Shown here piece by piece: positions 6,001 to 31,512 of a stretch of 31,529 nt of DNA. Source of the stretch: a virus. Numbering within the stretch: position 1 is the stretch's first letter; each line of letters starts with the position of its first letter. The translations under genes were made by a program, and so were the position numbers. Where the stretch lies: positions 1 through 31,529 of IMG/VR virus record IMGVR_UViG_3300017767_000064. One strand, given 5' to 3'. A model generated the notes under the pieces. That model worked only from the letters and a program-made list of their open reading frames with translations, did no database searches and was not told where the DNA came from.

Positions 6001-9000
6001 CGAAGAATCATTTTCTATTGATTCAAATGGTAATCATAGTGGTAACATAACTAATCAAGATATATCTACAGGTGTTGCTGGGGTAGTTGATACTAAATTT
6101 TTTAATTGTTTTGCATTTGGAAACGGTGTAGAAAGTTATAAAATAAGAGATGCTTTAAATGGTAAATCTTTTAATTTAGGTAATAGAGTATTTACAACTT
6201 CTAACGTAGAATATAAAGAAGCTCTTAGGTTTGCTGATTTAACTTATAGTGGTGTATATAATGATGAAACTAATGTTAATAAATTAAATGAATTTAATTT
6301 AGGTTTAGCCAATTTTAAACCACTTGAAGAAAGTTATGGAGATGTTGAAATATTATATGCAAGAAGAACTGATATCTTAGTTTTACAAGAGGATAAAATA
6401 TCATACGTATTAGCATCTAAAAATATTATATCTGACTCAACTGGAGGAGGTTTAGTAGCTTCAGTCCCAGAAATTTTAGGAAATCAAATAGCACGTATAG
6501 AGAACTATGGTATAAGCAATAACCCAGAAAGTTTTGTGGCTTGGGGTGAAAACAAATATTTTACTGATGTTAAAAGAGGTGCTGTACTTCAATTGATGGG
6601 TGGATCAGCTTCAGACGAAAGACTTATAGTTATATCTGAAACCGGAATGAGAAGCTGGTTTAGGGATTTATTTACTTCTGCATTTACTACACAAAAATTA
6701 GGAGGTTACGACCCTTACATGGACGAGTATGTATTAACTTCAAATACAATATTAAAACCTGAAATACCAGTTTGTTTAGCGTGTGGTGTTACTAAAGATA
6801 TAACAATAATAGCTAATCAGGACTTTGTTTATTGTGTGGATGTTACTGAGCAAACAGGAACTGTAACAGTAAGTTATGTAATCCCACAAGAAGGAGAGCA
6901 AGATATTGAAAGCGAAACTAGCGTATTGATGACAGATGAATCTGGAAACCAACTAATTACAGAGGGGTCTCAATCTCAAATTGGGTATACAATAAAAGCT
7001 ATTTATAAAGGCGTAACATATACATCAGGTTCTGTTACTGCTTCAGGTAGTTTTACATTTGATAAAAATGTTCCAAGTGTAGAAGAGGTTACAATAGTGG
7101 TTAGCTCAAATTCAGACCAAAACGATACTATTCAAATAAATGTAAGTTGTCCAGAAGCAGGCGCATTAAATATATATAACATTTGTGTTACTGACCCACT
7201 TGAAGCTGGACAATTCATACATAACGAATTTGGTTGGACTGACGGTGTAACTGTTTCACCTATAGAATCTAATTTAGTAGAATTTACAAGCACATCTTCT
7301 TCCTTTGCTATATCACAATACCAGTTATTTTCTGGACCACAGGGAAGTGGAGTTTTTCCAACTGACGGGTCTACTGTAACTGTATCTTCAAACAAAATTA
7401 ATTTTGATGATTTTGTATTTAACCCTTCAACAGATAGATTAAAATATTTAAGAACAAACACTTTTTATCAAAATAATGTAACAGACATAACAAGTTTACT
7501 CTCTTTAGCAATTGATGCAACACCAATATCTACAGTTGGCGCTCCAACAATTTATTCGGTAGATTTCACTATGCCAGCAAGCGGAAGTATTTTATATTTA
7601 GTGTGGGATTATAGGTCTACAGCATCACCAACGCCAACACCTACGCCTACACCAACTTCCACTGGCCCAACGCCGACTCCGACTCAGACGCCTACGCCGA
7701 CTCCGACTTTAACACCGACACCAACACCAGTGCCTTATAATTACTTTATTATTACTCCTTGTTCTGGAGGAGGAGGAACATTATATAGTAGTGTTAGAGC
7801 ATCATTTGCAAGTGGTGTAACATCAGGAGATATAGTAGAAATGAACGATGGTAGATGTTATGAGATAACAGAAGATGCAGCACCAGCAAATACTAACGAC
7901 TATATAAATGTTTATGTAGATTGTACTGCTTGTTTAACATCTAATCCAACACCAACCCTCACACCAACACCTACTCCAACACCTACACCAGGTGGTTGTA
8001 ACGAATGGGAGTTAGTAGGTGGCACTGGTGGTGGTACTTTTGGTTATACTGATTGCTCTAGTAATCCACAAACAGAAACAGTACCAGATGGTGATTCAAT
8101 ACCAGTTTGTGCTGTAGGTGTTCCTACTGTAACAAGTGGTAACGGGACTGTTACTTTAAATGGACCTTGTCCTACGGCAACGCCAACCCCAACGCCAACC
8201 CCAACACCTACTCCGACTGCGACTCCAGTTCCTACGCCTACACCTACTCCTTCTTGTAGCGTGTGGGAACTAACCTGTCAAAGTGGAAGTAGTGGATGTT
8301 CTTACTCGTATGTTGATTGTAATGGCAATACACAGACAGGAATAATGCCAGGGGATTTTGATATTGAGGTATGTGTATTAAACGGAACAACACCTATAGT
8401 AAACGGTCCTACGCCAAATAACACTGGAGTAAGTTGTAGTCCAACTGTTACTCCAACTCCGACAGTTACTCCGGTTAGCCCAACCCCGACGCCAACCCCT
8501 ACTCCGACTCCTACGTTTGGATATAATTATTACACTGTTACAATTTGTCCAGGACAAGGTAGTGCAACTTATATCAATGTTAGAGTAGCAGATGCTAGTG
8601 GAGATGCTCCGGGTGATATAGTATTAATGGCTGACGATAGATGTTACGAGATAGATGAAACTAGTTCAACTGTAAACGCTAATGACTATACTAATGTTTA
8701 CCCAGATTGTGATACTTGTATAGCTACTAACCCTACTCCAACTCCAACGCCAACTCCAACACCAACCCCGACGCCTGGAGGTTGTAATGAATGGGATTTA
8801 GAAGCAGCGTCAGGTTTAGTTGGTAACTTTAGTTATACTGATTGTAGTGGTGCATCACAAACAGAAAGTGTAGATGCTGGTGATTCAGCATCAGTATGTG
8901 CATTAGGGGTGCCTACTGTAACAAGTGGTGGTGGTACTGTTACGCTTGTAGGACCTTGTGTTACACCAACACCAACACCAACACCGAGCCCTACTCCTGG

Positions 9001-10137: not shown

Positions 10138-10202
10138 TATTTTTTTTATTCGTTTATAATTAATAAATTTAATTAAATTTAATTTAATCTAATAGATTGC
10201 CT
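10138..10202 (+). promoter_or_regulatory. AT-rich leader with T-run and shared 16-mer before the glycosyltransferase cassette
   Basis: A T8 run at 10141-10148 is followed by TTTAATTTAATCTAAT at 10178-10193, nine bases before ATG 10203. The same 16 bases occur before the primase gene on the other strand (30396-30381). No GC-rich hairpin precedes the T-run. The gap holds no small ORF. It may be a promoter or leader that starts the cassette as its own transcript. Confidence 0.4.
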
Positions 10203-11429
10203 ATGTCCAAAAACAGTATATTCATCCAAATTGCAGCGTACCGTGACCCAGAATTAGTACCTACATTAGATTCATTATTTGACAACGCAAAATTCCCTAA
10301 TAATATAATGGTATGTATTGCCTGGCAACATTCAACAGAAGATAAGTGGGATGATTTAGGTAAATATAAAAAAGACAAAAAGGTAAAAATATTAGATATA
10401 CCTTATACTGAAACAAACGGTGCTTGTTGGGCACGTAATTTAATACAGCAAGAATATAATAATGAAAAATATACATTACAACTTGATAGTCATCACAGAT
10501 TTGTAAAACATTGGGATGTCAAGTTGATTAAAATGTATGAGAATCTACAAGAAGCAGGGCATAAAAAGCCATTGCTTACTACTTACGCAACAGCATACGA
10601 CCCAAATAATTTTAACATTAAAGATAACGCTGAAGTTTGGGGAATGAAATTTGATAGATTTACGCCTGAAGGTGTAGTGTTTTTCCTTCCTTATACAATT
10701 GAAGATACAAGCAAACCTTTACCGGCAAGATTTTATTCAGCACATTTTGCTTTTACAACAGGTAAACACGTAGAAGAGGTTCAGCATGACCCTTCTTTTT
10801 ATTTTCACGGTGAGGAAATAACTCTTGCTGTTAGGTCTTTTACTCATGGCTATGATTTATTTCATCCAAATGAAATAATTGCTTATCACGAATACACAAG
10901 AACAGGTAGAACAAAACATTGGGACGACGATTCAACTTGGGTAGAAAAAAACACACATACACATAGTAGGGTAAGACAGCTATTAGGAGTAGATGGTGAA
11001 GTTTGTACTCCTTGTAATGAGAAACATTTTGGTGTTTATGGTCTTGGTAAAGAAAGAACTTTACAGGATTACGAAGAATATAGTGGAATTAGATTCAGTG
11101 ATAGAGCTATTAGGCAATCATGTTTAAATAATCAAATACCAACATTAGGTAAAAAAGATGAATTGTATCATCCTAAGTTCTCTCATATATTAAATTTACA
11201 TGGAAATCAATTTCAATATAATGATTATACATTTTGTGCTATAATATTTGAAGATGAAAAGAAAAAAGAATTATATAGAAAAGATATAACTCATTTAAAT
11301 CAATTAATAAAAAATAAAGATAATTTTAATATACCGGTAGAATCAAATACTAAAAAACCAACTAATATAATTGTATGGGCACATTCAGAATCTAAAGGGT
11401 GGGCTGAACGATTAGTCATACCTATTTAA
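10203..11429 (+). CDS. GlcNAc-transferase family glycosyltransferase (PF11397-like, 408 aa)
   Basis: The N-terminus SIFIQIAAYRDPELVPTLDS (residues 5-24) is the hallmark start of the PF11397 'Glycosyltransferase (GlcNAc)' family. It is followed by NGACWARNLIQQEY (72-85) and LQLDSHHRFVKHWD (93-106), whose D-S-H is the D-x-D-like metal/sugar-nucleotide site. The founding eukaryotic member adds GlcNAc to hydroxyproline on Skp1. The protein is cytoplasmic, with no signal peptide or membrane helix. ATG 10203 fits the family start better than TTG 10197. The stop overlaps the next ATG (TAATG), so translation is likely coupled to the methyltransferase. Substrate in this phage is unknown; tail proteins or host glycans are candidates. 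Confidence 0.88.
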   Translation: MSKNSIFIQIAAYRDPELVPTLDSLFDNAKFPNNIMVCIAWQHSTEDKWDDLGKYKKDKKVKILDIPYTETNGACWARNLIQQEYNNEKYTLQLDSHHRFVKHWDVKLIKMYENLQEAGHKKPLLTTYATAYDPNNFNIKDNAEVWGMKFDRFTPEGVVFFLPYTIEDTSKPLPARFYSAHFAFTTGKHVEEVQHDPSFYFHGEEITLAVRSFTHGYDLFHPNEIIAYHEYTRTGRTKHWDDDSTWVEKNTHTHSRVRQLLGVDGEVCTPCNEKHFGVYGLGKERTLQDYEEYSGIRFSDRAIRQSCLNNQIPTLGKKDELYHPKFSHILNLHGNQFQYNDYTFCAIIFEDEKKKELYRKDITHLNQLIKNKDNFNIPVESNTKKPTNIIVWAHSESKGWAERLVIPI

Positions 11430-12115
11430 TGTTTGAATTAGAAAATTATCATAATAATAAATCTTGTAACTTTCATTTATATGATGATTGTCTTATTTGT
11501 AATATTGTAAAAAAAAATAAAATATACGAAGAGTTTTTACATAAAATATTTGAGAAATATGTAAATAAAAATTCGGTTGTAATTGAAGGAGGATGTCACA
11601 TCGGTTTACATAGTGTTAAATTATCAAAATTATGTAAACAACTTTATTGTTTTGAACCTTTAGATAGATCATTTGAATTATTAAGTAAAAACTTAAAAGA
11701 AAATAAATGTAATAATGTAAAAAAATTTAATAAAGCATTATCAAATAACAATAATAAAATAAAATTTAATTGGATTACTTCTAACAACCCAGGAGGAAGT
11801 GGTTTAGATAATAACCCAATGGGAAACATAATGCCTACATCTACAAATAAAGAAACTGAATGTATTACAATTGATAATTTAAAATTAAATAAATTAGATT
11901 TTATAAAATTAGATATAGAGGGGTATGAACCCTTAGCATTAGAAGGAGCATTAAATACAATAAAAAAATATAAACCAATAATTGTTTTAGAATGTTGGGC
12001 TGACCATAGCGGAAATGCTAATTTAGAACACACCAAAACCTTATATAAAGATTTTATTGAATTAGGTTATTCAATTGAACAAATTAGTCATAGTGATTAT
12101 TTATTAAAATGTTAA
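11429..12115 (+). CDS. FkbM-family SAM-dependent methyltransferase (228 aa)
   Basis: A Rossmann-type SAM site is visible at VVIEGGCHIGLHS (residues 50-62), then YCFEPLDRS (73-81), and the family-typical LDFIKLDIEGYEPLALEG (156-173) followed by PIIVLECW (183-190). FkbM proteins O-methylate sugars or small molecules, so it may cap or modify a glycan built by the neighbouring glycosyltransferases. The gene is coupled on both sides: TAATG with the upstream gene, and ATGTTAA (12109-12115) with the downstream one. It is strikingly AT-rich; 11701-11760 has only 6 G or C in 60 bases, suggesting a separate origin from its neighbours. Confidence 0.88.
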   Translation: MFELENYHNNKSCNFHLYDDCLICNIVKKNKIYEEFLHKIFEKYVNKNSVVIEGGCHIGLHSVKLSKLCKQLYCFEPLDRSFELLSKNLKENKCNNVKKFNKALSNNNNKIKFNWITSNNPGGSGLDNNPMGNIMPTSTNKETECITIDNLKLNKLDFIKLDIEGYEPLALEGALNTIKKYKPIIVLECWADHSGNANLEHTKTLYKDFIELGYSIEQISHSDYLLKC

Positions 12116-14406
12116 TACCAAAAAAAATATTTCAAACATTTAAAACAGTTGAATTACCTGAGGGTATGAAACAAGCTCAGCAAACATGGGTTGTAAAAGA
12201 TTTTACCTATAATTTTTACGATGATAAACAGTGTCTTGAATTTATTAAACAACACTTTACACATAAAGAAGTAAACGCATTTATAGACCTTGTTCCTGGT
12301 GCATTCAAAGCTGATTTATTTAGATTGTGTGCTTTGTATATTCATGGAGGAGTTTATTCAGATATTGACACAGTACTATTAGAAGACCTGGGGGGACTAT
12401 TAAATCAAAACGTTAACCTTATAGTTTGTAGAGATGACCCTATGGCTAAAAAATGGTTATGGAATGGTTTTATAGCTACAACACCAAGACATCCTGCTCT
12501 TAAAATTGCAATACAGAAAATTATATCTAACGTTGAAAGTAAAGAGGAAAGGTTTTATCTTGATTACACAGGCCCTGCTATGTTTGGTAAAGCTATAAAT
12601 CAATATCTTGGAAGGGATACAGAACAAGATTTTAAGTTAGGTTTAGATAAAACAAGTAATATGTTAGTTGTTCAACATCAGAATGGTCATATAGTTTTTA
12701 ATAAAAAAAATTACATAAAATGTGAATACCCTACAAAGCAACAAGATAATTTACCTTCTTACTTTTGGGATAACGTTGAGAAACACAGAATATTTAGAGA
12801 GATACCCAGAACAATAATCTATACAGCATTAGATTTGTTTGGTGTTAATGACTACATGATTGATAGTTTTAAAAAACATAACCCTGATTATGAATTTTTA
12901 TTTTTTGATGAAACACAAAAGGAGAAATGGTTTCAAAATACACCATATGATGAATTTTACCGTACACTTTCATGTAAAGGAGAGATAAGTGATTTTTTTA
13001 GGTACTGTTATCTTTATGAAAACGGAGGAGTTTATGTAGATACAGATACTTTTTGTAACCAACCTTTGGACGATTGGATAACTTATCAAGATATAATTTT
13101 TGGTTTAGAAGGTAACGTTGTTAAAGAAGGTTTTTTTAAAGATAATTTTTTTGGTATAGGCTATGTAATAGATAACAAAATTCTTTCCGTATGTAACTGG
13201 GCAATAGCTTCTAAAAAACATCATCCTCTTATGTTACAGGTTATACAAGATATAATGAACAACCCAGTTGATAGAGGTGCTATAGTTAACACAGGGCCTG
13301 GTAGAATTACAAAACACGTTATAGATTATTTTGGAACAAAACAAGACTATACAAAAGATGTATCTAAAGATAACTCAGTATGTCTATCAATAAATCGCTT
13401 TGGCTCTAACCAAATACATAGTAATGCTTTTAAAACATCAAAACCTTTTGAAGTAACAAGAGATGATATTTATATAACCCACATGTTTGAGGGCACTTGG
13501 AGAACAGCAGAAAACAAAGACATAAAAAAGTTAGATACGTTAACAAGACCCTCTGTCACACACAACCTTACAATTTTTCCTTATGGAGATGAATATAAAG
13601 GCGTATCAAGATATGATGAGAACACTGAAAGAACTTTGTTTATGAAAGAGATTGGTGATTGTAGAAGTTTAACAGAGTATTTGTTTAATAAAGATTTTGA
13701 CGTTATCAACTCAAAAATTCTACCTATAGCAGGATACAGTAAAAAAGCAAAGTTTGAAGACTTTAGACATTTTTCATACAAAGGTAAAGATTACTTTTGT
13801 GCCGCTTATATAGATGGCGAGTTTAATACAAAAATGGCTATTTTAGATTATCAATATACTTTTTTAGGAGATGTTGTTATAGACGAATATAACAAGATGA
13901 AATTTGGGGTTGGACCAGAGGTTTACTTTGAAAAGAATTGGTTATTTTTTGAAAAGGATGATGATCTTTATTTTATTTATTCAACAACACCCACCTTGCA
14001 GATATACAAATGTGAGGATTGGGATACATTATACTTTAAAATTTATCATAAAGAAGACACAGACAACAAACACAACATTCCAAGAGATGAAATGTATTTC
14101 TCTAAAGTTACAACCGGTGGTTCAACCTCTCCTATAATTATAGAAGATAAGTTGATATATTCGATACATACAAAAATATATAACGAAAGACAGTATAATC
14201 ATTGGTTAGTAATGCTTGACAGTAACTTTAACTTTATAAAAATTTCTTCTGTTCCTTTTATAAACAAACACATAGGTTATGGACTATTTTTTGTTATGAC
14301 TATGCTAGATACAGGAGACACAGTAACTCTATCTGGAGGATTAGAAGATTTCCAAAACTGGATTTGGAAATTTCCTAAATCAAAAATATTAAATTGTTTT
14401 AATTGA
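12109..14406 (+). CDS. Tandem GT32-type glycosyltransferase with C-terminal beta-rich domain (765 aa)
   Basis: Two glycosyltransferase 'sugar-binding DXD' (PF04488/GT32, OCH1-like) domains lie in tandem. The first starts IPKKIFQTFKTVELP and carries HGGVYSDIDT with D85-I86-D87. The second starts near residue 230 (REIPRTIIYTALDLFG) and carries GGVYVDTDT with D311-T312-D313. Both metal-binding motifs are intact. Residues about 480-765 form a beta-rich region with FEDFRHFSYKGKDYFCAAY (about 547-565), recalling the E-D-x-R strand motif of five-bladed-propeller glycosidase/phosphorylase-like proteins; that part is tentative. A protein that adds two sugars in sequence is plausible. It overlaps the methyltransferase gene by seven bases and closes the cassette. 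Confidence 0.85.
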   Translation: MLIPKKIFQTFKTVELPEGMKQAQQTWVVKDFTYNFYDDKQCLEFIKQHFTHKEVNAFIDLVPGAFKADLFRLCALYIHGGVYSDIDTVLLEDLGGLLNQNVNLIVCRDDPMAKKWLWNGFIATTPRHPALKIAIQKIISNVESKEERFYLDYTGPAMFGKAINQYLGRDTEQDFKLGLDKTSNMLVVQHQNGHIVFNKKNYIKCEYPTKQQDNLPSYFWDNVEKHRIFREIPRTIIYTALDLFGVNDYMIDSFKKHNPDYEFLFFDETQKEKWFQNTPYDEFYRTLSCKGEISDFFRYCYLYENGGVYVDTDTFCNQPLDDWITYQDIIFGLEGNVVKEGFFKDNFFGIGYVIDNKILSVCNWAIASKKHHPLMLQVIQDIMNNPVDRGAIVNTGPGRITKHVIDYFGTKQDYTKDVSKDNSVCLSINRFGSNQIHSNAFKTSKPFEVTRDDIYITHMFEGTWRTAENKDIKKLDTLTRPSVTHNLTIFPYGDEYKGVSRYDENTERTLFMKEIGDCRSLTEYLFNKDFDVINSKILPIAGYSKKAKFEDFRHFSYKGKDYFCAAYIDGEFNTKMAILDYQYTFLGDVVIDEYNKMKFGVGPEVYFEKNWLFFEKDDDLYFIYSTTPTLQIYKCEDWDTLYFKIYHKEDTDNKHNIPRDEMYFSKVTTGGSTSPIIIEDKLIYSIHTKIYNERQYNHWLVMLDSNFNFIKISSVPFINKHIGYGLFFVMTMLDTGDTVTLSGGLEDFQNWIWKFPKSKILNCFN

Positions 14407-14465: not shown

Positions 14466-16238
14466 ATGGCTTGTAACATTTATATATTATCTTGTCCTAT
14501 AGGAGCAGTAGGAGATGAGTGTACGTTTGAAATTGATTGTTGTGATGGACAACTAATTAACTATACCATGCAGCCTGATAGTATTGTTGAGGCTTGTGTA
14601 CTCGAAGAAGGAGTAGTTACTGTAACATCTTTATCTGGTTCAGCTTTTGAAACATTTGACCCTTGTTCTTCTGATTGTGGCGATATTCCTATAGCACCTA
14701 CCCAAACACCAACACCTACTCCGACTGCGACTCCAGTTCCTACGCCAACGCCAACGCCTGGAGCACCAACACCGACACCAACAGTAACAGTAACAGCCAC
14801 ACCCACGCCCACGCCTACGCCAATAAGTGTTCAGTGTTATGAGTGGGAATTATTATGTCCAAGTACAAGTGCTTATGGTTGTAGTTATGAATACATAGAC
14901 TGTAACGCAGTAACTCAAACCGGGACAATTGAGCCGGATAGAGACATAGACGCTTGTGTTTTATTTCCAAACACTCCAATAGTAAATGGTGGTACAGCAG
15001 TAGGGCCTAGTGCTGCATGTTCAGCAAATCCGACACCTACGCCAGGTCCGACACCTACGCCAGGTCCTCCTACTCCAACACCTACTCCTTCAACAGGATG
15101 TACAGAATGGGTTTTAGTGTGTCCTAGTAGTGCCACGACATGTAATTATTCTTATAGGGATTGTAGTAATGTAGTACAAAGCGGTACTTTGTTCACTGAC
15201 ACAGACTATGAAGTTTGTGTAAAAGATGGTAATATACCAACTGTACAAAATGGACAAGCACGTAGTGAAAATGTTGCATGTTCATCTCCTACTCCCACGC
15301 CAACTGCGACTCCAGTTCCTACGCCAACGCCAACGCCTGGACCGCCGACAGCTACTCCAACAGCTACTCCAACTCCAACGCCTACTCCGACAGCACCTAC
15401 TCCGACTAGTGTTGTTCCTCCAATACCTTCACCGGTAGAAACGGAGTATACTTTAACATATAGTCAAACTTCAAAAGGGTGGCCATCGTTTTATTCATAC
15501 ATACCTGATTATATGCTTGGTATGAATCAATACTTTTATACATTTAATGGTGGTAATTTATACCAGCACAATGCTAATGGAAGTAGAAATAATTTTTATG
15601 GCGACCAATATAATTCTCAAATAACAACTGTGTTTAATCAAAACCCACTTGAGAATAAGATATTTAAAACTATTAATTTAGAATCAGATCAGGCATGGCA
15701 AGCAAACTTAGAAACTGATATACAACAAAACGGATTTATTGATAGCACTTGGTTTAAAGAAAAAGAAGGTGCTTATTTTGCATCTCTAAGACAAAACGGA
15801 GAAGTGCCAGCACTTCCAGGTCAATACGCAATGAGGTCAGCAAACGGAATAGGAAAATGTATTAGTAATAGCAGTGTAGGAAATACAACTACAATTAATT
15901 TTTCTACAAACCCTTTGGTAAATATAGGAAGCATTGTAAGTATAGGTGACTATTTATATTTTTCATTACCAAACTATACAACAATTAATTTAGGTGGGCA
16001 AATAACAAACATAAACGTAGATATACCAGCTGGCATAAATCAAATTTCTATTGATACAAGTATTTCTGGAACATCGACAATAACAATTCAAGACCCTTAT
16101 ATACTTTATATTAAAAGTTCAGTTGCAGAATCCCATGGTTTACTTGGTCACTACTGTGTATTTACTTTAATAAATGAGAGCACTGATTCTACTGAACTCT
16201 TTGCTGTAGAGTCTGAAGTTATGAAAAGCTATCCGTAA
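14466..16238 (+). CDS. Second Thr-Pro bead protein with tail muzzle-like C-terminal domain (590 aa)
   Basis: Three type B Cys-containing beads lie at about residues 1-76, 122-186 and 210-274. They share the C-x-x-W/Y-x-L-x-C start, Y/F-x-D-C middle and D-x-x-x-x-V/A-C-V strand with the beads of the 3068-9712 protein. Thr-Pro linkers follow each (about 77-121, 187-209, 274-324). The C-terminal domain (325-590) contains SQTSKGWPSFYSYIPDYMLG and a following G-N-L-Y-Q-H-N / R-N-N-F-Y-G stretch, which I associate with distal tail (muzzle) proteins of crAss-like phages. It is thus probably a second tail surface protein assembled near the first. It has no signal peptide. Its own promoter-like element precedes it. 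Confidence 0.82.
   Translation: MACNIYILSCPIGAVGDECTFEIDCCDGQLINYTMQPDSIVEACVLEEGVVTVTSLSGSAFETFDPCSSDCGDIPIAPTQTPTPTPTATPVPTPTPTPGAPTPTPTVTVTATPTPTPTPISVQCYEWELLCPSTSAYGCSYEYIDCNAVTQTGTIEPDRDIDACVLFPNTPIVNGGTAVGPSAACSANPTPTPGPTPTPGPPTPTPTPSTGCTEWVLVCPSSATTCNYSYRDCSNVVQSGTLFTDTDYEVCVKDGNIPTVQNGQARSENVACSSPTPTPTATPVPTPTPTPGPPTATPTATPTPTPTPTAPTPTSVVPPIPSPVETEYTLTYSQTSKGWPSFYSYIPDYMLGMNQYFYTFNGGNLYQHNANGSRNNFYGDQYNSQITTVFNQNPLENKIFKTINLESDQAWQANLETDIQQNGFIDSTWFKEKEGAYFASLRQNGEVPALPGQYAMRSANGIGKCISNSSVGNTTTINFSTNPLVNIGSIVSIGDYLYFSLPNYTTINLGGQITNINVDIPAGINQISIDTSISGTSTITIQDPYILYIKSSVAESHGLLGHYCVFTLINESTDSTELFAVESEVMKSYP
14694..15436 (+). repeat. Thr-Pro linker repeat tracts with exact internal duplication
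   Basis: Three CCN-ACN tracts lie at about 14694-14828, 15026-15092 and 15286-15436. The 39 bases 14724-14762 are identical to 15303-15341. A 38-base stretch (14709-14746) is identical to 8201-8238 in the giant tail gene. Identity at the DNA level despite synonymous freedom points to recent copying or recombination between linkers. Confidence 0.9.
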
Positions 16239-24321: not shown

Positions 24322-24404
24322 TTAAATAAGTTCCAAAAGATAACGTAAAGTATCACTGCGTTTATTATAAATACAATTAGAAAATTTAATTTACTGTGTT
24401 TCAT
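24318..24404 (-). CDS. 28-residue single-pass membrane peptide at the convergent junction
   Basis: ATG 24404-24402 overlaps the TGA of the metallophosphoesterase gene (24403-24401) in the classic ATGA arrangement for coupled translation. The ORF ends at TAG 24320-24318, overlapping by four bases the stop of the convergent 1763-aa gene. The peptide starts MKHSKLNF and is then almost wholly hydrophobic (L-I-V-F-I-I-N-A-V-I-L-Y-V-I-F-W), so one membrane helix with a positive N-terminus is expected. It exactly fills what would otherwise be an 80-base gap. Possible roles are a holin-like, antiholin-like or membrane-anchoring peptide. Function is unknown; very short ORFs can be chance, but the overlap geometry supports it. 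Confidence 0.5.
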   Translation of the reverse strand: MKHSKLNFLIVFIINAVILYVIFWNLFN

Positions 24405-25117
24405 AGCTCCATTAAACAATTAATAGCGGTGTGTCCGCCTAGTACAACGCCACATCCTATGGCTTGTTTCTTAAAATGCTTTGCGTAAGCAGCTGCGTAT
24501 GAGGTTGTGTCTATACCACAGCCTACTTGCATCCCGAAGATACGAAAGTTTCTCCCAACCATCCATTCAATGTAAGCTTGCGTGTGTATATGACCCTGAA
24601 CTGTAGACATCATATCGTTCTTTGCTTTTGTTCTAGCAGTCCCTCCCTCTCCGTGAATGTATTGTACATTGTCATATACTACTCTCTCAACCCAGTTCCA
24701 AGCAGTTCCTAAAACCTCATTATAAGATTTAATCCACATAGAAGGTATTGCTGAGGTCTGAGCTTTACGCATTACCATTCTGTCATGGTTTCCTATGATT
24801 ACATCTGCATCAGGAAAAGAATCTTTCCATTCAGATACAGCCTGAATTGCATATTCCAACTCATCAGCTCCACCTAGAGCATCGCTTGAAGTTTCATGAT
24901 ATGAACTGTAATGATTGTCTATGATGTCTCCAATAAAAATTACTTGGTTACATAAATACTTTGCATAGGTTTCTTGACAAAACTCTAAGTACCCATCAAG
25001 TTCAAAAGGTGCGTGTATATCTCCTATAACAAGGATACGTCTTTCGTTTTTGGTTAAGTTATCGTAAGCTATTTTTTTATCACCTTTTAGGCGTGGCCGG
25101 AAATCTTTATATCTCAT
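24401..25117 (-). CDS. Metallophosphoesterase, calcineurin-like (238 aa)
   Basis: All five metal-binding blocks of the calcineurin-like phosphoesterase fold are present in order: GDIH (32-35), GDIID (63-67), GNHDR (109-113), HGEGG (155-159) and GHIHT (175-179). The enzyme is cytoplasmic and likely hydrolyses phosphoester bonds in nucleotides, nucleic acid or phosphoproteins using two metal ions. Such enzymes are frequent in phage replication modules, where substrates are seldom known. It starts 11 bases inside the upstream small gene and its stop overlaps a 28-codon membrane ORF. It is the penultimate gene of the - strand operon. Confidence 0.92.
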   Translation of the reverse strand: MRYKDFRPRLKGDKKIAYDNLTKNERRILVIGDIHAPFELDGYLEFCQETYAKYLCNQVIFIGDIIDNHYSSYHETSSDALGGADELEYAIQAVSEWKDSFPDADVIIGNHDRMVMRKAQTSAIPSMWIKSYNEVLGTAWNWVERVVYDNVQYIHGEGGTARTKAKNDMMSTVQGHIHTQAYIEWMVGRNFRIFGMQVGCGIDTTSYAAAYAKHFKKQAIGCGVVLGGHTAINCLMEL

Positions 25118-25295
25118 TTTCTAAGGAGTCAGTTATGGTTTTAAGTTTTGATGTCATCTTAGAAACCTCTCCTTTGAGTTCAACATATTGTTGGTCGACA
25201 AGTAATTCGTAAATGTTATTTACGGAGTCGTGTAAGTCATCCATAATATAATTAATATTACGTATGCGCTTTTGTTCTAACGGAGTGATGTTCAT
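25107..25295 (-). CDS. Small coiled-coil protein of unknown function (62 aa)
   Basis: This protein of 62 residues is almost entirely predicted helix with heptad-like hydrophobic spacing (I-x-x-I-N-Y-I-x-x-D-L and V-x-K-M-T-S-K-L). It probably forms a coiled-coil dimer. It overlaps the metallophosphoesterase start by 11 bases and begins three bases after the stop of the upstream gene, so it is a tightly packed operon member. I recognise no family; it may act as a partner or regulator of a neighbouring replication protein. Confidence 0.7.
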   Translation of the reverse strand: MNITPLEQKRIRNINYIMDDLHDSVNNIYELLVDQQYVELKGEVSKMTSKLKTITDSLENEI

Positions 25296-25298
25296 AAT

Positions 25299-25529
25299 TT
25301 ACTTTGTTTCCCTTAACATCATTCCTCCCCAATACTCATCGATAGACTTTATATATCTATAAACTTTTCTGGATTTTTTTTTAACGTTTTCAATTTCAGT
25401 TTTAGTTGATTCCTTTCCTAGATTACAGTACAAATCGGCATCAATCTCTAGTAATTTATCTATTTTTTTACGGTCATTCCAAGATGTAAATCCTATAATC
25501 TTGTCTATGTCCTCTATAGAATACGCCAT
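25299..25529 (-). CDS. Small conserved-looking protein of unknown function (76 aa)
   Basis: This charged helical protein of 76 residues has W-N-D-R-K-K-I-D-K-L-L-E-I-D-A (about 17-31) and L-G-K-E-S-T-K-T-E (about 37-45), then a Lys-rich helix with a Tyr repeat. No catalytic residues or membrane segment are evident. The W-x-x-R-K/ID/LL-x-x-D layout could be a helix-turn-helix-like or ATPase-associated small domain, but this is a guess. It lies 23 bases after the DnaA-like gene and three bases before the next small gene, within the replication operon. Confidence 0.7.
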   Translation of the reverse strand: MAYSIEDIDKIIGFTSWNDRKKIDKLLEIDADLYCNLGKESTKTEIENVKKKSRKVYRYIKSIDEYWGGMMLRETK

Positions 25530-25552: not shown

Positions 25553-25972
25553 TTATGAAATTTTTTCTAAAGTCTGTTCTAAATTATAAAATTTTTGTTT
25601 CAGGTTTATATAGTTGTGTAGCAGTAATCTATAGTTATCTTTAGCTTTTCTATTTCTAACTCGTGCATTTAAGTTATTACGATTTTTGTATATTTTTTCT
25701 TGAAGAATTTTATCTTTTACTTTTTGATATATATCAAGCATTCTGGTTTCATTCCACAGTTTTAAGTTTGTAAAGATTTTTAAAGCATGAAGAACTGTAG
25801 CGTGGTCTCTGCCAATAGAAGATCCAATATCTTTTAATGGTTTGCTAGAAAACTCACGACACAACCTAAAGTAAATAGCTCGTTGATATACATTTTCTTG
25901 TACTCTACTTTTTAAAGTAAAATCATTTTCAAATTCTTTAATTAACATCTGCTGTATTTTTTCAAGTTTCAT
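25553..25972 (-). CDS. Stand-alone DnaA domain IV DNA-binding protein (139 aa)
   Basis: Residues about 1-90 match the C-terminal DNA-binding domain of DnaA (Bac_DnaA_C). RAIYFRLCREFSSKPLKDIG (31-50) is followed by the signature GRDHATVLHALK (54-65), the helix-turn-helix that reads the DnaA box. The AAA+ ATPase and other DnaA domains are absent. The remaining ~50 residues are a basic coiled-coil-like tail. It could bind DnaA boxes at a phage origin, recruit host replication proteins, or compete with host DnaA. Its start overlaps the upstream gene by 11 bases. It sits with primase and helicase genes, supporting a role in replication initiation. Confidence 0.9.
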   Translation of the reverse strand: MKLEKIQQMLIKEFENDFTLKSRVQENVYQRAIYFRLCREFSSKPLKDIGSSIGRDHATVLHALKIFTNLKLWNETRMLDIYQKVKDKILQEKIYKNRNNLNARVRNRKAKDNYRLLLHNYINLKQKFYNLEQTLEKIS

Positions 25973-26303
25973 AATTTATAGTTTTATTTAGGTTTAAGTA
26001 GTCTAAGTATTGATCCGAAGTTATAATATTAAATTTATAAAACAAAGGAAACATACTTCTTGAGTTAAGATATTCTACACTAAAAAACAAAGGCTCTTGC
26101 ATAGTAACAACACCTGCGACTAAGCCAAACCTTCTAGGTTCATCAGCGTATTTTTTTTCTTCATGCATTTCACTTGCCAGCTTATCTAACTGCATTATAA
26201 TTCCAGCACTATACAGTGGGGGTAAAGTCTCAAGCTCCTCCAAAAAATTTTCTTCCATTTCGTAAAAGCTTTCATCCCCTGTAAACCTCTGCGGTAAATC
26301 CAT
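25962..26303 (-). CDS. Unknown protein of the replication operon (113 aa)
   Basis: This protein of 113 residues has an acidic N-terminal third (E-M-E-E-N-F-L-E-E-L-E-T-L) and a more hydrophobic, aromatic C-terminal half (LFFSVEYLNSRSMFPLFYKF). The ATG at 26303 gives a 32-base overlap with the VRR-NUC gene, and the 3' end overlaps the DnaA-like gene by 11 bases. A later Met (near residue 16) would reduce the long overlap and cannot be excluded. No known motif is visible; its place suggests a small accessory of replication or recombination. Confidence 0.65.
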   Translation of the reverse strand: MDLPQRFTGDESFYEMEENFLEELETLPPLYSAGIIMQLDKLASEMHEEKKYADEPRRFGLVAGVVTMQEPLFFSVEYLNSRSMFPLFYKFNIITSDQYLDYLNLNKTINYET

Positions 26304-26511
26304 ATTCTTTTAGTTCTTTCATGCGGTACTCCTGAAGCTTAGACACCCTTCCCTTTTTGGTTTTAATTTCATAAAATTCAATACCATAATCTGGGTGTAA
26401 TGCTAATACATCTGGTATACCATTTTTATTAGTCTTGATTAATTTAATGACAAAATACCCATCAGCCTCTAACTCTTTTATTTTTTTAGTTTGAATCTGT
26501 TGCTCAGTCAT
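26272..26511 (-). CDS. VRR-NUC family nuclease (79 aa)
   Basis: This is a minimal VRR-NUC domain of the PD-(D/E)XK superfamily: GIPDVLAL (31-38) supplies the metal-binding Asp34, FYEIKTKKGRVSKLQ (46-60) supplies Glu48 and Lys50, and Q60 completes the site. Stand-alone versions of about 80-110 residues are common in phages and can act on branched DNA such as Holliday junctions or flaps. It follows the helicase and a small coiled-coil gene and overlaps the next gene by 32 bases. A role in resolving replication or recombination intermediates is likely; active-site residues are all present. Confidence 0.9.
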   Translation of the reverse strand: MTEQQIQTKKIKELEADGYFVIKLIKTNKNGIPDVLALHPDYGIEFYEIKTKKGRVSKLQEYRMKELKEYGFTAEVYRG

Positions 26512-26524
26512 TATACAAATTTAA

Positions 26525-26725
26525 TTATTCTTTTGATTCTTTTTCTTTATCAGAATCTGCTTTAAGTTTTTCTAAAGCTTCATCATAATCTGGCATACGC
26601 TTGATAGTTTCCAGTGTACCAACAGATAAGTTCTTTAGATTGTACATCTCTTGTATAACTTGTTGCATTATCTGGTCAAGCTTATCCAGCTTATTTTTCA
26701 TCTCAATTAATTTTTGTTCTTTCAT
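26525..26725 (-). CDS. Small coiled-coil protein of unknown function (66 aa)
   Basis: This protein of 66 residues is Lys/Glu-rich, with a regular hydrophobic heptad in M-K-N-K-L-D-K-L-D-Q-I-M-Q-Q-V-I, so a coiled coil is likely. The C-terminus is charged and probably disordered (KADSDKEKESKE). It starts two bases after the helicase stop and lies 13 bases before the VRR-NUC start. It may bridge or oligomerise these enzymes. No family is recognised. Confidence 0.7.
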   Translation of the reverse strand: MKEQKLIEMKNKLDKLDQIMQQVIQEMYNLKNLSVGTLETIKRMPDYDEALEKLKADSDKEKESKE

Positions 26726-26727
26726 AT

Positions 26728-27954
26728 TTATAAACTTAGTAAATCTTTTTCAAAATGTTTTAGTGTGTAATCTTTTTTCTTGGTAACAGCTCTATATATT
26801 TTATCTTCAATACCACCCTCGGAAAATATCCAATACACATCATTCTGTACTGAATCTTTAGTTGTCATTCTGTCACGTGACTGCCAATAACTAAGAGCAG
26901 AGAAATCTATATTGTAATAGACAAGACAATCTGCTTCCTTCAAACTTATTCCCTCTCTTCCACTCACAATTTGCAATGCTATGTTTTTGTGAGTATCTTT
27001 AAACTCACTTAGTTCTGTGGTTAAATCATCCCCGTACACTTGTTTTAAAGCATCGTACTCGGCTTTAAACTTATAAAATATACCTATCTTCTGATTCTTA
27101 AATTGAGTGCGTATAAACTCAGCTTTTGAATAGTCAATTACTGTAGCTTTTCCGCTCTCAAACTTAACTGTTCCAGAATATAGTTGATGTAATTTTGACA
27201 TCAACTTAACTCCTGTATCTGCCAACACCACCTCGTCCGTTCCCTCGATTACTAAATTCTTTTTAAGTTGATTAACCATATTATAAGTAAGCTTGGACAT
27301 CTTAACCTTTAACACCTTCTCAATGGTTTCTACCTTGAAACCCGCTTCCTTCTGCGTGTAGGATATCATATAAGGCTTCATCTGATCTAAAATGGTCTGT
27401 CTACCTCGGCTATAATTATTGTGCGGCATAGCGCCTATTTTAATTTGCACTACATCCACATAATCTTTAGCGAACTTATAAAAGTTTACATAGTTTCTAA
27501 ATGGATTGTGAGGACACGCATAAACCTGATGGTACATTTGACTAAATGATTCTGGTGTAGGTGTACCTGACATTAGAATTACAAAAGGGTTTTGTTTTTT
27601 AATGACTTGCTTTATCATTTTAGTTCTCTTGCTTGGTTTTGGATACGCACCCATACCATGTGCTTCATCAAGCACAATGCATTCATACTCACCAACTACC
27701 TTATGAAGGCTCTCATAGTTTACAATGTTGATGTGAAACTTTGGTTTGAGCTTATTGTAGTCATCCTCTATAGAAGATATAGCTTTCTTCTTGGTAACAA
27801 ATAACATATTGTCAACGCCTAGCTTCTGAGCTGTACCCATAGCAGTCAAAGTCTTTCCTGTTCGCACCTGCATAGACAGGTATACGAAACCATATTTAAC
27901 AAGAACATCAAACGCCTTGTCTATAATTTCCGATTGGTATTTTCTAAATTTCAA
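26728..27954 (-). CDS. SF2 DNA helicase, SNF2-like (408 aa)
   Basis: The helicase motifs are in order: Q-motif-like FRKYQSEIIDKA (3-14), motif I VRTGKT (30-35), motif II VLDEAHG (94-100) and motif III MSGTPTPES (128-136). The C-terminal lobe has SGREGISLKEADCLVYYN (motif V) and ALSYWQSRDRM (motif VI). The order and the short length match phage SNF2/DEAH helicases used at the replication fork or in recombination. The start is a TTG at 27954-27952 overlapping the primase TGA as TTGA. The only early ATG lies inside motif I, so TTG is favoured. Translation is likely coupled to the primase. Confidence 0.9.
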   Translation of the reverse strand: MKFRKYQSEIIDKAFDVLVKYGFVYLSMQVRTGKTLTAMGTAQKLGVDNMLFVTKKKAISSIEDDYNKLKPKFHINIVNYESLHKVVGEYECIVLDEAHGMGAYPKPSKRTKMIKQVIKKQNPFVILMSGTPTPESFSQMYHQVYACPHNPFRNYVNFYKFAKDYVDVVQIKIGAMPHNNYSRGRQTILDQMKPYMISYTQKEAGFKVETIEKVLKVKMSKLTYNMVNQLKKNLVIEGTDEVVLADTGVKLMSKLHQLYSGTVKFESGKATVIDYSKAEFIRTQFKNQKIGIFYKFKAEYDALKQVYGDDLTTELSEFKDTHKNIALQIVSGREGISLKEADCLVYYNIDFSALSYWQSRDRMTTKDSVQNDVYWIFSEGGIEDKIYRAVTKKKDYTLKHFEKDLLSL

Positions 27955-30374
27955 AATGGTATAAATTCTGTTTCGTTATTAATATTATCTTCAGGCTTTT
28001 GCTTCATAATAATCCACTTACCATTCAGATCCTTGCCCTCTTCTGGTGGCACACCCTCTTTGTACATACAAAAAGAATAAAGCCATTTGTTAAATCTTAT
28101 TCTACTTATAGACATCTTAGCTCTTGGAGAATAATCAGGATACTCTTGTACAAAATCTAAATACAATTCATTTGTGTTTAATCTAATATCTGGTACTAGC
28201 TTTGAGTTAGGCTGCGTTCCCTCAAGTAAACCGCACCACTCAATAAAGTCATGACTAGTCTCAGCAGATAGCTGTCTAATCTTTAGGTTTACAAATTCAC
28301 TTTCAATAAGTCCTTCTCTTAAGTATAACTGAAGACATTGAATCATATAGTTATCAAACACACACCACTCATCATCATCCCAATCGCCAAAGAATAATCT
28401 ACCAAACTCATCTTGTGGTGTAAAGTTTTTACTATAATGTTGATACAATTCAAGCTCCCACTTTCTCCTTTGAAAAGAATTACCAGCTCCTTTTATGGCA
28501 TAGTTTGTGGTAATAGCTATCTTAGGGCTCTTGCTAAATGGAATCTTGATAGCATCCTTGTTTTTCTTTTCAAGTGTTAGTCCCTCTGTTGCTACACTAA
28601 ACAATCTTTCAAAGTCAAAGTATTTCTTTACATCATCAAAGCAAAGTATCTGCGTGTCTGCTGACACTAACTGATAAGCAAAAGACTTAGCGAAATCAAA
28701 TGCCTTTCCATCTATTGTCACTAACTTTTTCATGTGGCTAAGTGCGTTCATGAATATACCTTTACCTGTACCGCCCTCTGGATTGTCTGATATTACCTCA
28801 TCATTAAGTATAACTGCTGGACAATAAGACAGGTTCTTATGACCATGCATTAAGAATCCTATCGTTGACTCCATTGATGTAGTTCTTACAGGATTTTTAC
28901 CACTGATATTTTCCACAAATGTTTTGTAGTCGCAATCAAAAGTTTCGCATTCTTTATAAGCTCTGTCAATGACATGATCTTTCCATACATATCCACCCAA
29001 GTCCACATAATCTATGGCTATGACCTCGTTCTGCTTTACTTGAACTGCACAATTTCTGTAATATAAATAAGAAGAATTTTTAGAATCTGCTATAAAATAT
29101 ATATCAATAGTACCTAAAAGTGTTAGAAATTCTTCACGAAAAAATCTTGTTTGCTCTGCAAAGTAATTGTAAATCGATACATCTTCATAATAATAAAGTG
29201 TGCCTAGTATAAAATCTTTAATTTCTTTCTCGCTTGTGTGGTCTATTAAATTGTTTGTAACCTTGACAAATACATAGTTCTTACTGCCTTCAGGACAATA
29301 TTTATAAAATCCATTGTCCTCTAAATACTTTTTAAACAAAAGAGGTACAATCTTTATAGTACCCTTATCATTTTTAGTCCAAAACTTTTGGTCTTCATCT
29401 TTCTCTGCCTTTTCAATAACCGCTTCAATTTCATCTATCTCTATGTTTGTGTTCTGAAGATCTCTTCTTATATCTTTCTTTGAATCTCCACGCTTTACCC
29501 TTTGCTTAATCTCATTGATAGTCTCAGTGTCCTCATAAAACTTAGTTCCAAAATCTGCTGCGTTTCTATAAGCAGAATCAATGGTGGTTTGTATCTCTCT
29601 CTTTGGAAAATCTGATGACTCATATTGATTACAAACAAAAGATGCTATGTTTTTTCCAACCCCAAACTCGTTTAAAGCTCTTGCTAATACATAAACATTC
29701 TGATTTCTTTGCCCTTCAACCATTGGATATTTTTGTTGCCACCACTTTGTAAGTATCTCTATAATTTTATTCTCATCTGTAATTTTAAGTAAAGGCACAT
29801 CCTTTATTATACTCTTCTCTTCATACTCCTCCTCTTCAATCTTATCCCAAACAGATGAGTTAGTATTTATATGTAGTAGTCTGTCATAAGACTCGTAACA
29901 AACTCTGGATAAATTTTTTGAAGTAGTGTCAAAATAGGGTGAATCAAATTCTTTTTTTAATGAATTAAAATATTTAGTATGGTTGTCTTGGTCTGCTGGT
30001 ATTTTAATTAAAACCTTTAATCCATTTCCAGAAGGAGAAACAAATGCTGAATAAACAAATTTATTTTTTTGAAATCGTTCCTTGTCTTCTAATAAATTTT
30101 TAGTCTTTGGATAACCATCAAAGTCTAAACATATTAAACCTGAATGCTCAACAATAGCTGAGTCAGATCTTTTGTTAAACTGACCAGAGAAACATATAGC
30201 AGGTAGATTTTTTTTAAGCTCATTCCTCTTTGTCTTATTTTTTTCTTGTCTTATTTTTTTAACAAGCTCTTGATTTTTCCCTTCTTTTATTCTTTGAAGT
30301 ATGTAGGTTACATCTTTAAAGAAAGGTGTTTCTGTTTCTCGTATGTTTTGAAATATGGTTACTACCTGAGGCAT
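27951..30374 (-). CDS. Primase-helicase: VirE/BT4734-type primase domain fused to SF3 helicase (807 aa)
   Basis: The N-terminal part has HSGLICLDFDGYPK (77-90), SAFVSPSGNGLKVLIKIP (about 108-125) and FDTTSKNLSRVCYESYD, the hallmarks of the BT4734-like/VirE N-terminal primase domain common in Bacteroidota elements. A primase C-terminal helical region follows, with QRNQNVYVLARALNEFGV. The C-terminal half is an SF3/DUF5906-type helicase with Walker A PEGGTGKGIF near 530-538, Walker B ILCFDDV near 575-580 and the sensor-like KIAITTNY. It should both prime and unwind, and is the central replication enzyme here. A terminator-like hairpin and a shared 16-mer precede its ATG. Confidence 0.9.
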   Translation of the reverse strand: MPQVVTIFQNIRETETPFFKDVTYILQRIKEGKNQELVKKIRQEKNKTKRNELKKNLPAICFSGQFNKRSDSAIVEHSGLICLDFDGYPKTKNLLEDKERFQKNKFVYSAFVSPSGNGLKVLIKIPADQDNHTKYFNSLKKEFDSPYFDTTSKNLSRVCYESYDRLLHINTNSSVWDKIEEEEYEEKSIIKDVPLLKITDENKIIEILTKWWQQKYPMVEGQRNQNVYVLARALNEFGVGKNIASFVCNQYESSDFPKREIQTTIDSAYRNAADFGTKFYEDTETINEIKQRVKRGDSKKDIRRDLQNTNIEIDEIEAVIEKAEKDEDQKFWTKNDKGTIKIVPLLFKKYLEDNGFYKYCPEGSKNYVFVKVTNNLIDHTSEKEIKDFILGTLYYYEDVSIYNYFAEQTRFFREEFLTLLGTIDIYFIADSKNSSYLYYRNCAVQVKQNEVIAIDYVDLGGYVWKDHVIDRAYKECETFDCDYKTFVENISGKNPVRTTSMESTIGFLMHGHKNLSYCPAVILNDEVISDNPEGGTGKGIFMNALSHMKKLVTIDGKAFDFAKSFAYQLVSADTQILCFDDVKKYFDFERLFSVATEGLTLEKKNKDAIKIPFSKSPKIAITTNYAIKGAGNSFQRRKWELELYQHYSKNFTPQDEFGRLFFGDWDDDEWCVFDNYMIQCLQLYLREGLIESEFVNLKIRQLSAETSHDFIEWCGLLEGTQPNSKLVPDIRLNTNELYLDFVQEYPDYSPRAKMSISRIRFNKWLYSFCMYKEGVPPEEGKDLNGKWIIMKQKPEDNINNETEFIPF

Positions 30375-30461: not shown

Positions 30462-30707
30462 CTAGAAAGGTAGGTTGTCCTTCTCCTCAGAAGTGTCAAC
30501 TTTCCCATCATTCTTTTTATAAGGCTCGCTGACTTGTATAGACAGCTTGAAATCTCCCGCTTGGGTTTTACCTTCCCATGCAGAAATTTCAAACTCCTTG
30601 CCATTTAAATCAGTCATTGTGCCTCTTAAATCTGGTTGAGTATCTTTTTCTTTATATGTGTTTTTGAAAAGTGATCCTCTTCCTTCTTTGTGTTTGTATG
30701 TACTCAT
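30462..30707 (-). CDS. DUF736/SSB-like OB-fold protein with SSB-type acidic tip (81 aa)
   Basis: The sequence KEGRGSLFKNTYKEKDTQPD, then RGTMTDLNGKEFEISAWEGK, matches the layout of small DUF736-like proteins (G-x-G-S-L-F-K-N ... P-D-x-x-G ... G-K-E-x-x-x-S-A-W), a short beta-barrel family often beside replication genes. The C-terminus is acidic and ends DNLPF, much like the D-D-x-I-P-F tip by which SSB proteins recruit partner enzymes. I infer a single-stranded DNA-binding role. It lies between the exonuclease and primase genes and is followed by a hairpin terminator, as might suit a highly expressed binding protein. Confidence 0.75.
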   Translation of the reverse strand: MSTYKHKEGRGSLFKNTYKEKDTQPDLRGTMTDLNGKEFEISAWEGKTQAGDFKLSIQVSEPYKKNDGKVDTSEEKDNLPF

Positions 30708-30723
30708 AAATTAAATATTAAAA

Positions 30724-31512
30724 TTAAAAATCTCCTTTGTATATTATTTCCTCTATACTATCTGTTGCATTTTCACTAAAGTATTTATCGTAGTGTAAAA
30801 GTGCGTGTTCTACCTTTTCTTTAGCATAAGATAAAGTTTCAGGTTTTATTCCAAAGACACCGACATCATAAGTTGTCTCGCCAGGTCTTGTACCAATAGG
30901 TTTTGGGGTTTTTCCCACAACAAAAAACACCATTGGCATTCCAAATAATTTTTGGTATATATATGCTTGTGTATCATAGCCATAATATGGAGCGTTCCTT
31001 GTCCACTTAGCTACATCTCCAGAGGTCTTCAAGTCTATTATCATTTCTTTACTTATGATATCCGCTTTCCCCTTAAAAATGTGGCCAGTGCCCATAATGT
31101 CTCCAACCATAGGCTCTTCATACTTAGCGTCAAAGTCAAACAAATATTCTTTCATTGCTTTAACTTTCTTGTTATCTTCATTCATAAACCAATCCACTAA
31201 TGCTTTTATTTCATCAGCTTCAGAAGTTTTAAGTGCATAGGTTAAGTCGTTTTCTACTAGCCACTCCTTATATGCCTTATCTCTTCGTGGAAAATCTGCA
31301 ATCGGAAAGTCTTTAGCCTTGTCTGGCTCAAGAATAAGTTGATGAAATAATCTTCCCTTTTCTAAGTTCTCGTTAGATTGCACTGGCAAACGATATGCCT
31401 CTGGATCGTATTGAAGTACTTTTATGTCAGAGTTCGATATATACTGCTTACCAAAGTCTCCATAGTATTGCTCATCATCTCGTAGCCTTTCTATAATCTC
31501 TTTATTTTCCAT
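30724..31512 (-). CDS. PD-(D/E)XK exonuclease, RecE/Cas4-like (262 aa)
   Basis: The conserved His region KGRLFHQLILEPDKA (52-66), GKADIIS (148-154), IIDLKTSGD (158-166, Asp160 and Lys162) and YDTQAYIYQ (179-187) reproduce the His / D / D-x-K / QxxxY layout of RecE exonuclease VIII and Cas4-like nucleases. It probably resects DNA ends for recombination or packaging-related repair, working with the SSB-like protein encoded next. The gene is the first complete one of the - strand module and starts 17 bases from the window edge. Its own promoter lies outside or at the very edge. Confidence 0.9.
   Translation of the reverse strand: MENKEIIERLRDDEQYYGDFGKQYISNSDIKVLQYDPEAYRLPVQSNENLEKGRLFHQLILEPDKAKDFPIADFPRRDKAYKEWLVENDLTYALKTSEADEIKALVDWFMNEDNKKVKAMKEYLFDFDAKYEEPMVGDIMGTGHIFKGKADIISKEMIIDLKTSGDVAKWTRNAPYYGYDTQAYIYQKLFGMPMVFFVVGKTPKPIGTRPGETTYDVGVFGIKPETLSYAKEKVEHALLHYDKYFSENATDSIEEIIYKGDF

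Follow-up and report, generated by a model that had tools for sequence, protein, structure and literature searches.

A motor-free DnaA domain IV protein in the replication cassette of a crAss-like-related phage as a possible reader of a phage replicator

Results and Discussion

The analysis of a 31,529-nucleotide stretch of viral DNA (the whole of it referred to as the window) disclosed a gene, named gene B, whose product is a DnaA domain IV with its DNA-reading face retained and without the DnaA motor. The best explanation that we can offer, to which we assign slightly less than an even chance, is that the detached B protein reads a phage replicator together with a second domain-IV-only protein (A), and hands it over to an SF3-like primase-helicase.

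The window corresponds to the IMG/VR record IMGVR_UViG_3300017767_000064 (31,529 bases, classed as linear in IMG/VR). It is most likely a fragment of a larger phage genome, since related records reach at least 60 kb and one relative, MW202828 (Podoviridae sp. ctfjg026, L069), is a circular genome of 60.85 kb. The phage is probably crAss-like-related; one window protein (14466-16238) contains the crAssvirus muzzle domain PF25729 crAss_MUZ_C (73.7 bits). A similar primase is found in named phages of Flavobacterium, Polaribacter, Cellulophaga, Maribacter, and Bacteroides, and a genome scan with the window primase returned four contigs, all within MAGs. The left part of the window carries + strand genes and the right part the − strand replication genes, with the junction at 24321/24401, close to the peak of the cumulative GC skew (24,253). 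Among the virion genes, a GlcNAc glycosyltransferase, an FkbM methyltransferase, and a sugar-transferase (DXD) gene lie in a row (10197-14406, + strand).

Gene B: domain, fold, and tail

The features of the replication block are the following, all of them on the − strand:

24401-25117, −, metallophosphoesterase, last gene of the block (PF00149, phrog_221)
25107-25295, −, orf62, small gene downstream of B (synteny)
25299-25529, −, orf76, directly downstream of B (synteny)
25553-25972, −, gene B, DnaA domain-IV-only protein of 139 aa (PF08299, 44.5 bits; fold match)
25556-25756, −, basic C-terminal tail of B, residues 73-139 (predicted long helix 76-138; charge count)
25757-25837, −, helix-turn-helix of B, residues 46-72 (model helices 46-51 and 57-72), containing, by alignment with DnaA, K47 (=P423), D56 (=D433), H57 (=H434), A58 (=T435), and H62 (=H439)
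25904-25906, −, codon of B R23 (=E. coli R399), invariant in 35/35 B proteins
25962-26303, −, orf113, directly upstream of B (synteny; phrog_38049, unknown function)
26272-26511, −, VRR_NUC nuclease (PF08774)
26525-26725, −, orf66 (synteny in some relatives)
26728-27954, −, SNF2-type helicase (PF04851/PF00176, phrog_62)
27951-30374, −, primase-helicase, the proposed motor (BT4734-like N-terminal part; weak PriCT_1 and DUF5906)
30462-30707, −, SSB (phrog_18154, E 2.6e-9; no Pfam match at E 0.01)
30724-31512, −, RecE/exonuclease VIII-like protein (PF12684, phrog_412)

Gene B starts with ATG, and residues 5-65 of its product match PF08299 (Bac_DnaA_C) with an E value of 1.6e-11 and a score well over the curated Pfam cut-off of 31.5. 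This is the single PF08299 match of the whole record, and no other Pfam family matches B at E values up to 1. Accordingly, an AAA+ domain III with Walker motifs is absent from the 139 residues of B, for which Pfam lists PF08299 only. Nor did the rest of the window show a DnaA motor; its largest replication proteins are the primase-helicase and the SNF2 helicase. The AlphaFold2 model (21-row alignment, mean pLDDT 88) consists of a domain IV fold followed by a single long helix (76-138); its best nine Foldseek matches are all DnaA chains (8btg, 3pvp, 1j1v, and others), with a TM score normalised by target of 0.84 against both 3pvp and 1j1v. Residues 66-139 include 17 K+R vs. 7 D+E (net charge +10, pI 10.1). 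The first-pass annotation had described a DnaA box-reading domain devoid of the motor and provided with a basic tail; the Pfam match, the predicted fold, the charge of the tail, and the lack of any AAA+ match all bear this description out. The tail is poorly conserved, the conserved residues of B being those of specific contact. In the comparison of B with its homologue in L007 (49% amino acid identity), 75 of the 162 base differences fall at third codon positions.

The DNA-reading face

E. coli DnaA has R399, P423, D433, H434, T435, and H439 as its base-specific residues (PMC7561715). The window B retains R399, R407, D433, H434, and H439, while P423 is changed to K and T435 to A. All of the 35 B proteins compared have R399 and H434, 34 have R407, and 32 have H439; position 433 is occupied by D (21), H (10), or N (4), and position 435 by A (24), S (8), or T (3). 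The same two positions were inspected in 30 bacterial DnaA proteins, that is, in the 30 of 33 loci that yielded a usable domain, belonging mostly to genomes in the class that includes an Aureispira MAG, with two loci from Aliivibrio and gammaproteobacterial MAGs. In these, position 433 is always D, and position 435 is A in 14, S in 12, and T in 4 proteins. The picture offered by 38 A proteins is different: R407 is invariant, but position 399 is K in 32 of them, H434 is present in 27, and D433 in just 6. The conservation of the contact residues in B and their degeneracy in A suggest that B is a DnaA-like reader and A a divergent one.

Genes A and B among the relatives

Relatives were collected as 36 IMG/VR records found with the primase-helicase as a query; the B protein alone, used as a query, found none. 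PF08299 is detected at E values up to 0.001 in 35 of the 36 relatives (over the curated cut-off in 32), with two matches in 19. It was also detected in 25 out of 30 further records, hand-picked from 80 groEL loci for their length, A genes, or clear repeats, the five records without it being 30-43 kb long. At least one PF08299 gene is present in each of the 29 records of these two collections that are 55 kb or longer, and two are present in 21 of them; this set contains near-duplicates, and the matches were assigned to A or B in part of the records.

In the relatives, the second domain-IV-only gene (gene A, about 100 aa) precedes RecE, at a distance of about 7 kb from B. As just 17 bases of the window follow RecE, gene A, if present, has been cut off. 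The A protein of L002 also folds as a domain IV (model pLDDT 94). The contact residues of B are kept even though the B proteins of 21 relatives are just 16-49% identical to the window B. In two phages (G026 and G033) B is present and A is not detectable; the reverse holds for L013 (G012), L015 (G014), and L030 (G029). In these five phages, the remaining gene, be it A or B, retains the H434 position.

The replication cassette

On the − strand, the genes follow one another in the order RecE-like, SSB, primase-helicase, SNF2, orf66, VRR nuclease, orf113, B, orf76, orf62, and phosphoesterase. This order is maintained among the relatives, with B in a syntenic position, albeit with some genes gained or lost; many of the relatives lack a recognisable SSB, orf66, or phosphoesterase. 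The PriCT_1 and DUF5906 matches of the primase-helicase remain below the curated cut-offs, the latter just under it. Its sequence carries the stretches GGTGKG, FDDV, and TTN, which we take to be motifs A, B, and C of SF3 helicases; the P-loop-like stretch does not follow the canonical GxxxxGK[ST] pattern.

Canonical DnaA boxes

The first-pass annotation had found no close DnaA box by eye, and indeed no exact TTATCCACA exists in the window. The site that it had indicated as the nearest one, TTTTCCACA (28909-28917), does have one mismatch; however, there is nothing special about it, as it is one of 13 such sites vs. 10.9 expected, i.e., there is no enrichment. Boxes of the TTWTNCACA type are not enriched in the window or in 25 other phage records (several of them incomplete), and no record exceeds the maximum of its own simulations for boxes per 500 bp. 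Canonical DnaA boxes as marks of the phage origin were thus rejected. Over the same 26 records, five exact TTATCCACA were counted vs. 14.8 expected under a first-order model, a deficit that vanishes under a maximal-order Markov model (4 vs. 4.1, 24 records). An active avoidance of host boxes was also discarded, since shorter words explain the deficit and 97 out of 1680 anagrams are even rarer relative to expectation.

An iteron region beside groEL

Clustered 8-mers pointed to a noncoding region in the relatives, located between a small ORF and groEL, directly upstream of the latter. The search of the window yielded no corresponding groEL-side region. The region was taken from 14 and then from 5 more records, 11 of the 19 sequences being trimmed by hand before counting. 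Its repeats (iterons) roughly fit WWWT[CT]n[AT]CA, with a core that varies by phage; the cores seen are CGTCAG, CGTCAT, CGTCAC, CGACAT, CGACAC, CTACA, AACAT, and AACAC. The copies inside the region vs. those elsewhere are 7 vs. 5 in G005 (rest of 62 kb), 7 vs. 4 in G008, 7 vs. 0 in L131 (its 11-kb contig), and 7 vs. 7 in G011, and the enrichment is weak in G012, G030, and G027 (3 vs. about 1 expected). The clustering of repeats within noncoding, AT-rich DNA was thus observed in the relatives, in some cases weakly so, and not in the window.

In 11 tabulated records, each region contains 5-8 repeats; in 10 of them, the left and right repeats are set apart by an AT/CT-rich stretch of 80-92 bp (G028 lacks left repeats), and in four (G002, G003, G011, and L131) the final four repeats are arranged as inverted pairs. 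The sequence WATCAANNNNTTR, which we take to be the IHF consensus, occurs in 13 of the 19 regions, vs. 0.07 or fewer expected in each; only looser look-alikes, picked by eye, were marked in G002, G003, and G008. The likeness of the iterons to TTWTNCACA is equalled by 11-48% of shuffles for eight out of nine iterons and by 2% for that of L131. A wider set was obtained from a groEL scan, using the best 80 of 398 candidate loci. In 95 groEL-side stretches (69 distinct), taken by position alone (up to 450 bp before groEL), the variable base of WWWTCnACA is G in 114 cases, A in 50, T in 8, and C in 1, vs. A 242, T 188, G 69, and C 64 over the 26 records; a clear repeat is absent from part of the groEL-upstream stretches of this wider set. 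In five of ten records (MW202828, G002, G012, G018, and G019), the minimum of the cumulative GC skew, a measure confounded by gene orientation, is no farther than about 1.4 kb from the start of groEL; in the other five (G003, G005, G011, G016, and G032) it is at an end of the sequence read, the minimum of G003 also being 0.5 kb from groEL.

Other elements were observed in these genomes. By eye, a tRNA-like sequence directly adjoins the replicator-like region in L077, L080, L081, and L181. The perfect palindrome TGTCGTTAACGACA is repeated 14 times in the early-gene region of MW202828 (about 43753-55162), in the examples often shortly before a start codon; TGTCTTCGAAGACA occurs nine times in G028, and similar palindromes occur three to six times in five groEL loci. 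These palindromes may represent an early-gene operator or a transcript-processing site. Moreover, a recurring leader ending in AAAACTATG precedes the start codons of small early genes, with three, six, or nine copies per record, at 1-800 in G001 (L110), 5800-7000 in G002 (L087), and near 45 kb in G006 (L122); none is present in the window.

A concerted change of the iterons

In the aligned regions of G011 and L131, seven out of seven iterons show an identical base substitution (CGTCAT to CGACAT), vs. differences in 28 of the 245 other columns. Since all the iterons have switched alike, this is the pattern expected of sites read by one changing trans-acting protein. The comparison of L131 with L012 by matched ORFs revealed A proteins differing at 3 of 100 residues, recognised replication genes 90-100% alike (RecE 89.7%), and two other ORFs 81-89% alike. 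The B gene of L131 lies off its contig; G035 has an A identical to that of L131 and a B 93% like that of G011, and its groEL-side region was not found. The one ORF replaced between these two phages (34% identity) was considered as the iteron reader and rejected, being a recombinase exchange (ERF for Sak). With A nearly unchanged, the swapped ORF a recombinase, and the B of L131 off the contig, the G011/L131 pair singles out no reader. The exchange itself involves the single-strand annealing proteins of nearly identical phages (5821-6393 in L131, 7241-7834 in L012), one of them encoding ERF and the other Sak.

The column-wise search for covariation was carried out on the 25 regions in which one core occurs three times or more; its rows are related and its columns many. 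A first set of relatives had suggested that H434 of A covaried with iteron position 7; this candidate was dropped, as G120 and G123 contradict it (H present, GTCA iterons). In the association of protein columns with iteron bases (21 rows for A, 15 for B), no contact position (399, 433-436, or 439) is among the top seven in any test. Some of the top columns are located in or beside the recognition helix (A E76 and K81, B G74, in G011 numbering; nominal p 0.02-0.07), but recognition-helix columns score no better than columns elsewhere. Furthermore, G003 and G008 share nearly the same B recognition helix and have different iterons.

Which role for B?

The role that we favour may be outlined as follows. 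B would be a detached origin-reading head, retaining the face of DnaA domain IV and lacking the AAA+ motor. B and its paralogue A (or either of them) would bind the iterons of a replicator beside groEL, which would act as the origin and would also exist in the window phage, B perhaps being dimeric via its helical tail; the bound DNA would be bent with host IHF/HU, and the adjacent AT-rich tract would be handed to the SF3-like primase-helicase of the phage, which would open and prime it. SF3 enzymes of other viruses often have an origin-binding domain of their own; in the simplest account, this domain would here be a separate polypeptide. The observations on which the proposal builds are the domain IV fold, the conservation of contact residues, the replication cassette, the anatomy of the region in the relatives, and the concerted iteron change in one pair. 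The earlier suggestion that B could mark the phage origin is therefore favoured by the conserved cassette and the iteron region of the relatives, even though the sites are not canonical DnaA boxes. The failure of covariation, the almost unchanged B helix facing different iterons in G003 and G008, and the weak box likeness count against iteron reading by A and B, and the proposal is further weakened by the low iteron enrichment in G012, G030, and G027, by the groEL-upstream stretches that lack a clear repeat, and by the negative search of the window for the region; the binder could instead be a third protein, and the groEL-upstream region might be regulatory rather than an origin.

The main rival, owing to the fact that the face of B stays DnaA-like while the repeats change, is that B is a host decoy which occupies host DnaA boxes at oriC or elsewhere, excludes host DnaA from them, and stops host replication; the phage, with its few boxes, would be spared, and A alone would serve the phage iterons. 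We consider this unlikely. The first-pass annotation had likewise suggested that B could recruit or block host DnaA, a role of which the analysis turned up no direct sign. The contact residues of B are near those of bacterial DnaA (R399, H434, H439, and A/S/T at 435 as in the 30 DnaA proteins) and do not visibly track the changing iterons, and the deficit of exact boxes under the first-order model would agree with a decoy; however, that deficit is gone under the maximal-order one, G026 has iterons and B with no detectable A, and the 20 regions surrounding host dnaA (148 kb), which contain one exact box, are uninformative, as host oriC was not located there.

DnaA itself regulates promoters, and B might analogously be a transcription factor of early genes or of groEL with a DnaA-type helix-turn-helix. 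The position of the iterons, immediately before groEL, would suit such a role, as would the dispersed perfect palindromes that MW202828 and G028 carry in their early regions. Nevertheless, B is located among replication genes, and the recurring layout of an AT-rich tract and an IHF consensus is origin-like, which makes this role improbable in our judgement. Much the least credible alternative is a sequence-nonspecific B, which would use its basic tail to coat or bridge phage DNA, or would carry a partner: the net charge of the tail would suit such a function, but it is the specific-contact residues that are conserved and the tail that is not.

Comparison with known systems

B shares with the domain IV of bacterial DnaA (1J1V, 3PVP, and 8BTG) the fold and residues R399, R407, D433, H434, and H439, and differs from it in the lack of AAA+, in P423K and T435A, in the added helical basic tail, and in the variability of position 433 among phage B proteins. 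Proteins consisting of DnaA_C only are already known as a domain arrangement, from phage annotations, a PHROG, and a transposase-linked copy. The 'DnaA protein' of the Olleya phage Harreka_1 (145 aa) is a short phage protein with the same domain, 41% identical to B over 75 aa; in the synteny comparison, the other Harreka_1 genes match nothing in the window cassette, and no replicator is annotated. In MW202828, both genes are named after DnaA ('dnaA' and 'chromosomal replication initiation protein'), again with no annotated replicator. PHROG 16091, with no function assigned, matches both proteins (window B, E 9.4e-4; L012 A, E 6.7e-8). RAYT-type transposases, like B, have DnaA_C without the DnaA motor, as in a 335-aa frame of L142 whose N-terminal part is presumably RAYT-type transposase-like; unlike B, they are not phage replication genes, and their domain is fused to that transposase-like part. 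More DnaA_C genes exist outside dnaA in bacterial genomes (frames of 149-240 aa), at L138 1393-1959 (− strand), G078:C107, G069:C44, and G101:C12.

Lambda O, RepA, and SV40 T antigen are repeat-reading initiators working with a helicase; in the present case, a DnaA domain IV made as a polypeptide of its own would do the reading. YfdR of an E. coli cryptic prophage is a prophage protein acting on host DnaA, but it binds the DnaA protein, unlike the DNA reading proposed for B (PMC4776307). Full-text searches of a part of the literature yielded no description of a phage domain-IV-only initiator or of such a replicator; the co-mentions of 'crAss-like' and 'DnaA' encountered there concern DNAase and host dnaA.

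Conclusions

A broader formulation is possible, if doubtful: a split initiator made up of a motor-free DnaA head and an SF3-type primase-helicase, with a fast-evolving iteron 'dialect' and an oriC-like replicator, whose order would be iterons, AT-rich tract, iterons, IHF site, and iterons. Under the split-initiator reading, the fact that the regions all but avoid the host-box base C in WWWTCnACA would keep phage and host origins apart. If this were true, the DNA-reading half of the bacterial initiator would be able to function apart from its motor and in partnership with the helicase of a virus, and this crAss-like-related phage group would gain a concrete, testable origin; the L131/G011 pair would then represent a natural experiment on an initiator and an origin changing their specificity together.
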